Assembly: GCA_000310025.1 (NCBI GenBank)
Contig: FN648476.1
Span: 57,202 to 85,196 of the forward strand
Direction: 5' to 3'
Length of the DNA: 27,995 bases
Source: Ectocarpus siliculosus
Taxonomy: Eukaryota; Sar; Phaeophyceae; Ectocarpales; Ectocarpaceae
Shown here: piece by piece, positions 18,120 through 24,603 of the stretch
Position numbering within the stretch: position 1 is the first letter of the stretch
Layout: each line of letters starts with the position of its first letter
Position numbers and translations under genes: made by a program
The notes under the pieces: generated by a model
What the model saw: only the letters and a program-made list of their open reading frames with translations
Told to the model about the DNA's origin: nothing
Database searches by the model: none

Positions 18120-21100
18120 CTAAATGGGAGTCTTGGGGTCCAGGCCGACACACCCAGCGCTGAGTTCCCACAACCTCTTGCCCTTGGCCACGTCCCGCGC
18201 CTCTACCGAAACGGCCTGCTCCGAGAACGCCGACTCGGGTTTCCCCGGCTCCGTCGCGAAAAACCTACCGCCCGCCGCCCCGTCCTGCAGGGAGAGCTCC
18301 GTCACCATCTCCACCAAGGTGTCCCCCCCTTGTCCCACGGTGGCTGCCACCTGATGGAGAGGAAGGGTGTTGGCGCGCGCAGAGGGGGGGGGGGGCGTAC
18401 TCATGGTTTGCGTGTCTTCGCGGTTAGGGAGGGGGTTGTGGTGGGATATCGGCATACTCGGAGCCTCGAGAGACGTTCGATGCACGCGGGGCATGAACAC
18501 CAGGATGCTCTAGACCCACGCATGCCGGCGCTATAATACGTCATATAGTAGCCGCGGTGTTGGCGACAACATGACAAAATAAAGTTGCACGCGATTCCGC
18601 AGGTATTCCACCGTTCGACGGTGCACCGCCGTTTGAAGTCCTGTGGATTTGGCGGCGTTTTTCCCTTCTTTCGAGAGATGTTTTCAAATTGAGGCAGCGG
18701 GGTTGACAGAAAAAACTGTCGAAAGCCACTACTACCACACATCACGGCAGACAAACAAACTGGGTGGAATCATGGAGCGAATCTGCTGCGGCTCCCTTGA
18801 GATGCCACCCTTCCTCGCTCAACTTGGTGCGTTTCCCCAAGGTCGAGAGTGATGCAAGGCGCGGGTGGTGGAACTGAAAAGTGTGTATTCCACCCTGAGA
18901 ACTTGATAGCGAGATTATCAACTCGACACTCTTGACGGCACCGGCACAAGCAGTTGTGGTTGAGGAGAATTGATCTTTCAAATCGTCCAGCTTGGGGCTG
19001 ATATCGTGTGCATCAACGGGGACGATGCGCCATGACAGATAGTCCGCACACATTTACGCATTCTACCCGCAACATCAACAACTCTCCGGGGTAGTCAATT
19101 TCTGCTGAAAAGGCTCGAACAATGGGTAATTCACCATGATCTTGGCGCCCTTGCCTGGATCGAGAAATAGTCCGCCGTTGCTGCTGTTGACGGCAAAATG
19201 CTTGAGTTGCGACGAAACACATGTTCACAAATCTGAGCACACCTCTCTGGTCGCTCTTAGTAAATAGGTCCAACGAAAGAAAAAAAACGACGCTGGTCGA
19301 TAACCTTGGGCACAAATGTCGGGAACTTGGCTTTCGCAGCTGCTGGAGGCTACAAGTGGTGTACCAAGCGCGTAGGGTGTAAAAAATTCGTACACGACAA
19401 CACCAGCGGGAAGCTTTGCGACGAAACGCGCACCAAGTCTCCCTCGTGCGGCACACGACCAAACACACACATACCTTACACCCTCCCTCAACCAACACCA
19501 GCAACTCAACAATATTATTACGAACGCGCGTGGGTGCTCGCCTTGATGAGGTTGGTGGCCGCGAAGTCGAAGATCTTGGAGAAGATCGGGTTCTGGTTCC
19601 GGAACAAGCCGCTGCTGGGGATCAGCCCCGGAGAGAAGCAGTCCACCTTAACGGCGGACCGTCTCGCAGACAGTCGCCGCTGCGCCTCCAGCGTGAACAG
19701 GACGTTGCAGAGCTTCGAGTCCTTGTCTGGCAAATGGCGGGAGGGGGGGGGGTGTTCATGTTTTCCATGCCTTAGACCATTTGACCAAGCGTGAACAAGA
19801 TACTTCAGAGCTTCGTGTCCTTGTCTGGCAATTGGCAGAGGGGGTGCGGGGGGGGGGGGTCTCATGTTTTGCATGCCTGAGCTGTTGGAGCAATCGCCAT
19901 GCGTGGACAAGACATTGCACAGCTTCGAGCCCTTGTCTGGCAATTGAGGGATGGGGCTCGTGTTTTGCACTCCTTAGACCATTGACCACGCGTCCTCGAG
20001 AGGACGGAACGTTGTTCCCATCGGACCGATCACCCTTGGCCAATCGTTCCTTCCTACTTTGCCCAAGGCAGCTAAAAAAAAGCATCCCTATTATGTATCT
20101 ATTCCACTACTCCGGTAAGCCACCGTCTTCGTGTGGGTCAAGACCACAAACAGCAACACCGCAGGCAAAAAGGCCAAAAACCAAAAAGCAGCGTAGGCCC
20201 GTAGGGTAGTCAACAGCGAGGCTTCGATGAGAGACCTCGTATGCAAATGCACCGGCGACGATCGTCGGGCGTACGCTGCTGTTGGAGGCCCTGCTATAAT
20301 AAAGCACAGGGAGGCTCTGAGACTAAGGGCGATACCCCGTTTGGCGTGCAACGCACACACATTTCAAACATGCAAGATAAAAAAACTATAGGACGGGGTT
20401 TGTTTCGACTAGATGAGAGCAGCTTGCCATCCACCAAAAATGCGGTAGATGCGAATCCAGGCTCAACCTCAATCGCAACTATACATCGGTTTCGAAAGAA
20501 TACACAGCGTTGAGGCCGGGGGAGGGGGGCTTGGGCAGTCCCACCCATCTAACGGCCACCGTCCTGGACATGGCGGGGAAGAAACGAGAAGGGAGTTCAG
20601 TTTCCAAAGCTCTAGCGTTCAAGGTGTAGACACCCGAATCTCTTGAAGGCGAGACGAAGAGCAATTGCCACGTGCAAGACACGGGAGGAAGCTGGAGCGG
20701 GTGGCGAGGGTACAGACGCCAAAATGCTACCATTTCCAGAAAAAAACAAAAGGAGGTGTAGGTGATGGGATCGACACCCCTTGTCCCATCAGCGGAAACC
20801 CTGGAAAAAAAAATCAAAACTCACAAGCCTTGTCCCCGTCGTATTCGCCACCATCTACCATGTCGAATTTCTTGGAGTCGCCGTCCGCAGCGACATATCG
20901 CTCCAGCCCGCCCATGTCTCCCAGCGTCGCCTGCGGCATGGCCGCGTTGTTGAGGAGGGTGAATAGGGAGGGGGAGCCATGCAGGAGATAAGGGATGGAG
21001 GGGGTGCTGATGGGTGGCGGGACCGTTGCAACAACAACAAAGATGGTCGAGCTCTGCGTAAACAAGTTGCTGCAAGTAGAGAAAATAATTACTACACTTC

Positions 21101-24100
21101 GAAGTATCATGAAAGATAGTGTACCATGACAGCGCCAGGGACTTCGCATTTTTTCAAGCTTAGAAAGAGAGTACATGCCGTCCATTCTTCTCGAACTGCC
21201 GTCGAACAAACGCAGGTTCTTCCTCAGCAACCTGTTCGTTCACCGTGAACTCCTCCCAACTACCGTCTCTCGCATTTACAAACAAAGCTCCTGATATCTC
21301 CTATGTATTCATAAAAACAAAATTAAACGGGCACTAAGAAAAAAAGATCAGGTAGGTCGGAGCCCGAATATTGAGTGCTCCGTGCCGTTCGTCGTCACAT
21401 TGAAAAACCGTCCCGGTCTCTGCTAAACACCGTATACATCATCCACACCGTATATAGCAGTACCGCTTTTAACTTCGCTTCTTTTTCGGTCTGACCTTGG
21501 AGCCTTGGTTGCCCCCTGGAGTGTCCGGGTCATGGACGCTGCTCGCGGTCACCACAAGCCTCGGAGTTCGAAGGGCACCGGCCTCCAGCGGCTGCCGAAA
21601 CACACACACATACGTGCATGTATACGGAGCCCCGGGGGGGGGGAGGGGGGGCAGAGCAGCCAAGACGTTCAGGAGGGAGGGATGGAATACCCTTACCGCA
21701 TTGGAGGTTTGCGACAGAGCAACGAAACTCTGCGCCCCCTCGAGCTGCTCGCACGCGCTTGAATTCCACTACGGGAGCTTCACAGGGACCCAAAAATACA
21801 CCACCGACCTTGATGAGAAGGTTGGCAAGGAGGAAATGGCCCAAGTGGTTAGTCCCTACGGTCTCCTCAAAGCCTTCTGTGCAGTAGCCAGGAGAGCCTT
21901 TTGTGCTGGGGGCCATGCCTGGGGCGCCAGCAGGGAGTAGGGGGAGGGGGGGTCATGTGTTACGTCCGTCAATTGACCACCACCACACATGCCATAAAAA
22001 CAGGGCGCCCTGTCCTACACAGCCTCCACCACAAAAGCAAAGGAAGACCCACCCCCCAAACTATCGAAACGCGAATCCAGTCCAAGGAACTGTTCATTTC
22101 AAGAGGCACGCCACGCGAGCTTGCACAATCGCTCTAACACGTAATCTAAAATCGAGCCAAAGCAACGAATTACGACCCCCGCTCACCAGCGTTGAGGCAC
22201 AGCGTGTCGATGGGCTTCCCTTTCCAGGCGTCGACGAAGCCTCGAACGCTCTCCAAGGAGGACAGATCACACGCGAACGCCCCCGCGGCCCCCGACGCCT
22301 CGGCCGCCGCCTTGGCCTTGGCTTCCGTGCGGCAGGCCACGTGCACGTCGTGCCCCATCGCCACCTTCTCCGGAGAACCAACGTGACGGCCAAAATTGTA
22401 CTCTATTGTGCGTGTGGACTTTTGCCGCGGCCAGGGAGTTGGGGCCAAAAGGGTAGTACAATACATGAACGTTACTGCGGCCTTCGGAGCTTCGGCAAAA
22501 ATGGCAGTACAATACGTGAACTGTGCTACGGCCGGGGAGTTTCGGTCATTCAGATATTGACGGCAGCAGAACTGACCGATGGAAGGCACCGCGGGGCGTT
22601 CGTTGCCTCTGCGTTTTTCTAACAAAGCAGGATTCCGTTGTTTTCTGTGTACAACGTTGTCAACACGCTGGTGTACAATGCACAAACAAGGCGGCACACG
22701 CTGGGATGCCCCGGAGACGAATCATAAGCGCCGCCATGCGCGCACGCTCAAAACGACACGCATTGCCAACATTATGCTCGCTGCACGAGCACGACAACTG
22801 GTGGTCGAGTCCAGGAGTCCTTGCATTCACCTACAGACACGTCTAGGAGTTGAGCTGAAAATTTCAACGTATTTTACCGTCGATGAATCCAAAGCTCCAA
22901 CCAAACATAAATACCCAATGGTGTGCCGAACCGAGTTGGTGCCATTACGGCCACGCTGTAGCGGTTACCGTAGGTTGCATAAGATGTCACACCCCCTGGA
23001 CCGATTTTCGAAGCTCGAATTCTCGGCAGGAAAAGCAGTGACGGTGACGCCCAAAATGGTGGCGTTGGAACCGTGTCGTCGAGAACTTCCGAAAACACAT
23101 CCTTTGGTTTCGGCATCCTCTTCGTCGTGGAGTAATCGAGCTTTGAAAATCGGTCCAGGGGGTGTGATATCTTACATCATGCAACCTACGGTAGGCATCA
23201 GACGGTACGACGAGTGACTAACAAACACGCGTGGATTTAAGTGGCTGAGTCGCGCGTCCCGATTCCCGCGGTCGCAGCAACACCATAACCAGGACAAAAA
23301 AACGAAGTACGATATACATCTGCCACGGTTTAGAGGAGCACACGCGCACCAGCTTCGTTGCGGCATCAAGTCCAATCCCGCTGCTGGCGCCGGTCAACAC
23401 CACCGTCCTCTTCCCCGCCCCCTCCGCCTGCAAAAAAGAGACATGGTAGATCACCGCTGTGAGGGCAAGCCCTCAGGCTCACTGATCGCGCCGAGCAGTT
23501 ATGTAGCAGAGAGTACACAGCACCAGACTGTCTCCCACTACAGCATTTGTTCTACAGGCAGTGGAGCATTCTTGGTTTACTGCTGTGACACGCCAATTAT
23601 ATTATAGTAAGGTTGAGAGCAATGTCGGAAAATGTACATACAGCAGTACTACAATCACAGAAAGACTACCCGTTCGACTTGAAATCACAGAAAGACTACC
23701 CGTTCGACTTGAAACCACAGTCGACGGGGGGGTGTTGAAGTCTTGAAGTAGTGAGCGGGAAAAAAACCGGCCGGATACTGGGCGAAGCGTGTTCGTATCA
23801 GCAGTTAACAGTTTTCCCGCGGCCGTGTGTTCGCAGAAATCTCACCTGGCTTGGGCCTGCGAGCAGGGCGGCGAGCGCTGCGCCGGCCGCGGTGACGCTG
23901 AAACCCCCTCGCGTCATCTTCAGGCCCTCCTGGAATAAGTTCGAAGGCCATTTGCTGCTGCTGCTGCTGCTGGTACCCATACTGCTATCGCTGTCGCTGC
24001 TGCTGCTAGCGAGGGATCTCGCCGGGGTCTTACAGGGGGAGTAGGAGCGAGGGGCGTGGTATCGTGGGTGAGTGCATGTTTGGAGGAACGGGACTGTTCC

Positions 24101-24603
24101 GAAATATGGCAACATGGAAAATTTGCTGTCGGAGCCGCTTCTAGCCCTGGGTTCGTGCGCAGGATGCTGCTGTTCATCGCTGTTCTCCTTCCACCTGCAA
24201 GAACAAGTGTATCAACCCATGTGATCCGAAGTAAATATCGTACCCATGGTATCATCCCCGGCAGAGACAGACGTTGTTGGAAGGAATGTCGTCAGATCTT
24301 GACAAATCATGATAATCACGATTGTGGGCAACGAATTCGCATCTAAAGTACCGATATCCTGAAGCTAGCAGACCTCCTCGTGGCTATATACGGCCGGACC
24401 GCATCAGCACCTGACCCGACTGCTGTATCAGAACGGTGACACCAGCGGGCCGGCGGTGCGACATGATACATACCCACCTTCCTCATGATCGGATTGTAGG
24501 ACGATGATGATGAAGAGGAAGGTGTCGGGGCGACCATGAACGAAAGCGCATGTTGCGCAATACCCGCCGAAGACAGCAGAAGAAGCGGCAAAGCTTGCTT
24601 CAT
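18120..24603 (-). CDS. plastid-targeted short-chain dehydrogenase/reductase, protochlorophyllide oxidoreductase-like
   Basis: Nine exons on the minus strand: 24603-24478, 24028-23846, 23427-23350, 22364-22187, 21918-21809, 21591-21496, 20930-20825, 19726-19526 and 18343-18120. They sum to 1302 nt (433 aa plus stop) and every join keeps frame. Residues 1-21 are a signal peptide followed by FMVAP, the F-led plastid cleavage site of algae with complex plastids; a Ser-rich transit region follows, and then a hydrophobic stretch (TAAGAALAALLAG). Catalytic features are NADP-binding TGASSGIG (115-122), VACR (138-141), LNAG (186-189), TVGTNHLGHFLL with Asn212, ASSVHDP with the catalytic Ser at 242/243, and Y293-K-D-S-K297. 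DGGEYDGDKAYKDSKLCN and the C-terminal KRLWELS match the POR-like branch, but LNAG and SSVHDP differ from true POR (CNAA, VGS), so the substrate is uncertain. Intron 7 interrupts the Tyr293 codon. The exon 8-9 join (donor GTTCGT) is the weakest; an extra small exon in that 1.2-kb intron is possible. Confidence 0.85.
19692..19990. repeat. three tandem copies of an intron-exon junction (splice acceptor plus catalytic exon start)
   Basis: Units at 19692-19789, 19790-19901 and 19902-19990 (98, 112 and 89 bp) each carry, on the minus strand, a C-rich tract, the acceptor ATTGCCAG or ATTTGCCAG, and then the start of the catalytic exon ACAAGGRC. The first unit contains the true start of exon 8 of the dehydrogenase gene. 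The other two lie in intron 7 and have diverged. Confidence 0.9.
20825..20930 (-). other. exon 7 of the dehydrogenase gene, ending inside the catalytic Tyr codon
   Basis: This exon starts after CCGCAG and reads ATLGDMGGLERY to DGGEYDGDKA plus one base (T). The donor is GTGAGT, a strong site. The T joins AC at 19726-19725 to form the catalytic tyrosine codon. A competing strong-looking acceptor at 21070-21071 is out of phase with exon 6 and was not used. Confidence 0.85.
22427..22545. repeat. about 50-bp tandem repeat, 2-2.5 copies, in dehydrogenase intron 3
   Basis: Units beginning GCGGCC at about 22427 and 22477 and CGGCC at 22529 share GGGAGTT or GGAGCTT, CAAAA, and GTACAATACRTGAAC. The array lies about 60 bp from the acceptor of exon 4. 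Confidence 0.75.
22966..23193. mobile_element. MITE-like element with TA flanks and about 55-bp terminal inverted repeats
   Basis: The outer ends are CCGTAGGTTGCAT (22968-22980) and its exact complement ATGCAACCTACGG (23179-23191), each flanked by TA. Inside, 22987-23009 and 23145-23167 are a 23-nt perfect inverted match (TCACACCCCCTGGACCGATT and on), continuing imperfectly to AAGCTCGA. The core is about 110 bp with no transposase frame. TA target duplication plus short length fits a non-autonomous Tc1/mariner-type element. It sits inside intron 3 of the dehydrogenase gene. Confidence 0.75.
23653..23716. repeat. 30-bp tandem duplication in dehydrogenase intron 2
   Basis: Two identical 30-bp units starting AATCACAGAAAGACTACCCG, with a partial third (AAACCACAG). 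The perfect identity points to a recent duplication. Confidence 0.9.
23950..24006. repeat. trinucleotide (CTG/GCT) repeat coding for poly-Ser
   Basis: The repeat lies within exon 2 of the dehydrogenase gene. On the minus strand it reads as AGC codons giving two Ser runs, separated by an S/D stretch and MGT. It lies in the transit-peptide region, where length variation would be tolerated. Confidence 0.85.

Follow-up and report, generated by a model that had tools for sequence, protein, structure and literature searches.

The intron that divides the codon of the catalytic Tyr in a POR-like SDR gene of Ectocarpus siliculosus ends in three tandem splice acceptors, each set in a copy of a unit that includes the tail of a LINE. 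The anatomy of this array, its kinship with the LINE, the graded context of the acceptors, the open 70-aa insertion from the acceptor farthest upstream (A) and the stop behind the middle one (B) can all be read from the sequence. The array was probably made by insertion of the LINE followed by tandem duplication, with the acceptor at the conserved exon (C) mainly used and with A and B as rare by-products and not as an evolved control; what seems a regulatory device in this gene becomes a likely by-product. A more general lead than the single array is that the LINE seems to target C tracts.

The window is the whole stretch of 27,995 nucleotides that was analysed, and sequences from it were used to search the genome (189 Mb in 492 contigs). 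Features are collected in Table 1.

Table 1. Features of the POR-like gene and its acceptor array, in positions of the window.
Feature	Position	Strand	Remarks
POR-like SDR gene	18120..24603	minus	conceptual splicing, 9 exons read
Exons 3-9 of the POR-like gene	23427-23350, 22364-22187, 21918-21809, 21591-21496, 20930-20825, 19726-19542, 18350-18120	minus	
Intron 7 (1098 nt)	19727..20824	minus	Tyr codon split T/AC
LINE 3' part in intron 7	19974..20102	minus (sense to gene)	87% identity to the L033 copy over 129 nt; continues into the tail of unit A
Unit A	19901..19988	minus	LINE tail, short pyrimidine tract, CCAG acceptor (exon start 19936), 36-nt copy of exon 8 (YKGSKLCNVLST)
Unit B	19789..19900	minus	LINE tail, C tract, CCAG acceptor (exon start 19824), 36-nt copy of exon 8 (YKDTKL, then TGA 19807)
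Unit C	19691..19788	minus	LINE tail, C tract, authentic CCAG acceptor (exon start 19726), start of exon 8 (YKDSKLCNVLFT)
Segment retained with acceptor A (210 nt)	19727..19936	minus	open, +70 aa in frame
Further LINE-tail remnant, late in intron 8	18386..18427	minus	82% over 44 nt (E 1.6e-5); the acceptor of exon 9 follows 35 nt downstream

The POR-like gene and its split codon

Exon 7 ends at 20825 with GACAAGGCT T/gtgagt and exon 8 starts at 19726 with gccag/ACAAGGACTCGAAG (the slash marks the exon boundary), and the division of the Tyr codon of YKDSK by intron 7, which the earlier note had read from the same junctions, is confirmed. The junction of exons 1 and 2 is uncertain, a simple junction shifting the frame. 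Intron 8 has an apparent GC donor at 19541 (CAAG/gcgagc), inferred from the reading frame. Two other introns carry repeats of their own: a 30-nt tandem repeat of 2.3 copies in intron 2 (23653-23720) and, by eye, an element in intron 3 that has long inverted ends and resembles a foldback (23194-22966). Elsewhere, the minus strand between 3201 and 12988 holds open reading frames which, judged by eye only, resemble one or more mTERF-like repeat genes. No tRNA genes or known RNA families were found in the window.

The best NCBIfam match of the product is TIGR01289 (light-dependent POR), with 205.9 bits and below the cut-off of 331.35, and its best PDB matches are chains of chloroplast POR B. It resembles the light-dependent enzymes in overall alignment, in the motif NHLGHF and in the YKDSK block, which, when reached via acceptor C, supplies the Tyr and Lys of the YKxxK active site. 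It differs from them, apart from the score, in having Leu for the catalytic Cys (SPGLIPSSGLF, versus FPGCIAESPLF in the C8 gene, taken as the true POR of this genome, and YPGCVATSGLF in the cyanobacterial locus L147). Among 80 prokaryote loci, L147 is the only one with Cys at the aligned position, and in the parts covered of a published POR screening (PMC4337275) this Cys is required. In a tree of 27 rows, including 24 hand-picked from the 80 loci, the product is the sister of the C8 gene plus L147, branching outside the two with support 99/94. By these comparisons it is a deep sister of POR, here called POR-like and not filed as a POR because the catalytic Cys is missing. The label "plastid dehydrogenase", carried over from the earlier note, is plausible.

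A repeated unit built on a LINE tail

The three CCAG acceptors stand at equivalent places in ungapped copies spaced 98 and 112 nt apart, and each of them would restore YKxxK, as YKDSK from C, YKDTK from B and YKGSK from A, in agreement with the earlier account of the array. For these two spacings the copies in units B and A are 81% and 76% identical over 63 nt to that at 19690-19752. Comparison of the array with itself by BLAST aligned 160 nt at 76% and 102 nt at 77%; the list of tandem repeats from a TRF scan did not include it. The similarity also runs beyond 19692-19990, the interval first noted, into the LINE-derived stretch at 20102-19974.

As the earlier note proposed, B would give a non-productive form, its YKDTK being followed by one Leu codon and the TGA. 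This is the only stop among the three acceptor forms, and A is not non-productive by frame. Acceptor A is in phase with C (112 + 98 = 210 nt) and meets no stop through exon 8, and because the added segment is in phase and stop-free it spells an in-frame insertion; use of A would put 70 aa directly after the catalytic Tyr. An open frame of this length arose in 0.088 of Markov-1 trials on the same segment, or 0.029 when the one-in-three chance of the phase is included, figures which are post hoc and do not show function. This in-frame isoform is the unreported and most testable prediction of the array.

Matches to the tail of the element recur in units B and C (19904-19840 and 19792-19736). When the genome was searched with 19690-20000, at least 41 matches were obtained with 40 of the 47 candidates scored, namely the array itself and 40 rows from 39 further places; 36 of these rows lie on the tail region of B and 4 on the tail of A. 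The LINE copy in intron 7 gave at least 39 further matches, counting the best 40 of 1526 rough first-look candidates. Exact matches to one 20-mer from the tail number 100 in the genome, and its backward control has none. Inspection of 20 and then 18 copies showed one dispersed element whose copies share their 3' part, mostly have a C-rich tail and are followed by unrelated DNA. The 3' end is fixed, and the copies start at many points on the 5' side, 37 of 98 loci reaching the start of a 175-nt probe. C runs are found on both sides of the copies, and a homopolymer cannot show an exact target-site duplication.

Longer copies of the element extend upstream, and in the two that were inspected (L045 and L046) a long open reading frame lies just before the tail. 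Of four frames scanned in these two copies, one, in L045, contains a reverse transcriptase domain (RVT_1, PF00078; E 8.5e-21), which precedes the tail by about 1 kb; none was found in L046, and none of the four, from copies which may be truncated, contains an endonuclease domain. The element is classed as a LINE because of this domain, the link between reverse transcriptase and tail being seen in one copy only. A tRNA-derived SINE had been considered as the source of the tail and was dropped after the reverse transcriptase was seen.

Proposed origin and expected use of the three acceptors

We propose that a LINE whose 3' end carries a poly(C) tail landed in sense orientation beside the 3' splice site of intron 7, and that a match of ACGC(G)TGG between the LINE and exon 8 then allowed mispairing. 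Tandem duplication of a unit of about 100 nt, made of LINE tail, pyrimidine tract, CCAG and the first 36 nt of exon 8, would have left three acceptors, each completing the split Tyr codon. By eye, the junctions within the array read CACGC/ATGG and CACGC/TTGG (the slash here marking the joint), compared with GACGCG/TGG in the LINE (GACGCG/TGGTCAA) and CACGC/TGG in exon 8 (CACGC/TGGAGG), and each unit spans from the TGG of the LINE to the CACGC of the exon. In the alignment the tail of B retains bases that are missing from the tails of A and C; for this reason the events would not have followed one another in a plain series, and conversion or repeated slippage has to be invoked. Short tail forms resembling those of A and C are present in further copies too (L006, L017 and L023), which likewise makes slippage or conversion a likely contributor beside tandem duplication. 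Both the order of events and the by-product status of A and B are what we infer from these comparisons.

The context of the acceptors ranks C over B over A. The AG-free stretch before the acceptor measures 42 nt at C, 34 nt at B and 18 nt at A; the pyrimidine fraction is 0.86, 0.73 and 0.64, and the longest pyrimidine run 14, 12 and 6, in the same order. Since C combines the best context with continuation into the conserved exon, it is expected in most transcripts, and A and B rarely; the latter two look like decaying copies. By its AG-free stretch and its pyrimidine run the context of B is not bad, and some other acceptors of the gene are in some measures as poor as A, so that some use of A and B is conceivable.

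If B through its stop, together with A, tuned the amount of active enzyme by regulated competition, one could understand why CCAG is kept and YKxxK completed at all three acceptors and why B has a long pyrimidine tract. The poorer context of A and B and the changes accumulated in them speak against such a role, and in B a divergence of about 20% together with the stop reads as decay, so that we regard regulated competition as unlikely. It seems similarly improbable that A is used to give a real second protein, in which YKGSK would replace YKDSK and a partly proline-rich insert of 70 aa would stand behind the catalytic Tyr. That the frame from A is open would fit some use of this acceptor, 210 nt in phase and free of stops having a chance of about 0.03 by a simple model, but A has the weakest context of the three, the frame crosses C runs whose length presumably changes easily, and the insert disrupts the YKDSKxCN block that is kept in the C8 gene.

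The extra copies might also come from mis-joined, low-quality sequence at C tracts. Such cases seem to be present in this assembly: at L227 and L229, low-quality-looking near-copies stand beside N gaps at long C tracts, a sign of assembly breaks at poly(C). At the array there is no N gap, and over 63 nt A and B diverge from C by 19-24%; because the copies are about one fifth divergent and no gap is present, an assembly duplicate is very unlikely here. Insertion of the LINE and later tandem duplication, with C as the working acceptor, is the reading that we prefer.

Other LINE loci were inspected for the same arrangement. A second tail copy lies nearby in 9 of 60 loci, and in one of these nine, L104 (the same place as L228, C22:2120200-2122600), the acceptor and exon start are duplicated without a gap. 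There the tail occurs twice, 177 nt apart, each time together with a C-rich tract, a TATAG acceptor and some 60 nt that look like exon, and the upstream copy reaches a stop after 11 codons. Three further candidates were set aside as likely assembly artefacts, L055 (L227) and L085 (L229) for the near-copies flanking their N gaps and L097 for a stretch of N.

C tracts as apparent insertion sites and comparison with known systems

The 5' junctions were sampled at 98 loci, of which 61 do not reach the start of the 175-nt probe and 60 of these have usable flanks. Within 30 nt of the junction a C run of five or more was present in 32 of the 60 truncated copies, compared with 1 of 51 at 60-90 nt upstream (Fisher 5e-10); a G run was present in 2 of the 60, and 28 had no C run of five. 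On the 3' side a C run follows within 20 nt of the end of the alignment in 63 of 92 cases, and is found at 40-70 nt in 11 of 91. By these junctions C tracts are the site of many copies, whose tails lie on the C strand.

The sequence downstream of the tails was scored with a codon model for which 2697 codons of the window, L025 and L026 served as training set, some of them chosen by eye. From the 100 exact matches 60 were taken in contig order, excluding places already inspected and not taking separately a second match inside L063, and 58 remained after L069 and L083 were dropped for N. The best 350-nt downstream segment scored on average 15.0 bits in sense and 11.3 in antisense, sense being higher in 38 of 58 loci (Wilcoxon 2.2e-4) and reaching at least 25 bits in 9 versus 1. 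Control C tracts (38 of 40, L127 and L132 being dropped), which follow the single pattern GATT(C)10 and are unmatched in length or place, gave 11.0 and 10.1 bits, with sense higher in 20 of 38 (p 0.76) and 3 versus 3 at 25 bits or more. The bias was kept when windows 40 and 60 nt downstream were used, which leave out the C tract itself, and when five N-gap loci were removed (p 2.7e-4 to 5.9e-4; controls p 0.61 and 0.97). A second sample, with 170 nt from 34 of 38 loci, showed the same direction, the difference not being significant (mean 9.4 versus 8.0, 19 of 34, p 0.12).

Six of the ten best sense peptides matched Pfam at 0.01 (DEAD, TPR, ribosomal S15, lysine methyltransferase, BT1 and homoserine dehydrogenase), the DEAD match being below Pfam's own cut-off and from an N-gap locus, and one of the ten peptides being supplied by the N-gap locus L097; none of the ten best antisense peptides matched at this threshold. 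L053 yielded a WD40 fragment resembling Utp7/WDR46. Sense copies upstream of exons of conserved genes thus appear common in the sampled loci, the sense bias being significant in one of the two samples.

The LINE may target acceptors as such, or C tracts in general. Tentatively, and with more doubt than for the origin of the array itself, we suggest that it may home to C-rich polypyrimidine tracts in front of 3' splice sites, oriented so that the tract is rebuilt by its poly(C) tail, and that insertions would hence be tolerated in essential genes; the new units of tail and acceptor would then tend to duplicate in tandem, giving competing acceptors, shifted introns and occasional in-frame insertions like that of 70 aa in this gene. 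Among the matches listed from the open-licence literature, as titles and starts of abstracts, there was no description of a LINE targeting polypyrimidine tracts. If the preference for C tracts holds genome-wide, the niche of this retrotransposon would be shaped like a splicing signal, with pyrimidines left where introns often need them, and the gathering of LINEs in introns of old genes with little harm could be explained. It would also be a testable source of duplicated acceptors and small shifts of introns.

A small shift separates the two POR relatives of this genome. The matching intron of the C8 gene (CACCAAG/gtaagc ... acccaaag/GCTTACAAGG, in L025) lies 4 nt upstream of intron 7 of the window gene, GCTT being on opposite sides of the intron in the two genes, and the exon preceding it starts at the same place in both (Q/AHLGD and K/ATLGD). 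Intron sliding and separate origin are both possible explanations of the offset. Published tandem duplications around splice sites, in the parts of that literature covered, are alike in the duplication of the splice site and in intron positions a few nucleotides apart, as are the 4 nt here; they differ in that the duplicated pieces are coding and alien insertions are not evidenced, whereas the present unit joins a LINE tail to the intron's own acceptor.

The LINEs of Ectocarpus have been described as abundant, often truncated at the 5' end, common in introns and overrepresented in old genes (PMC12477816), and the element found here is alike in abundance, truncation and intron location; in the parts of that work covered, C-tract targeting and acceptor duplication are not described, "polypyrimidine" and "poly-c" having 0 matches in its main text. 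With the target-specific non-LTR retrotransposons of microsatellites and multicopy genes, as far as covered in PMC4640811, the element would share an insertion preference for simple sequence, its own target being the C tract, which in the sampled loci lies in part close upstream of an exon.
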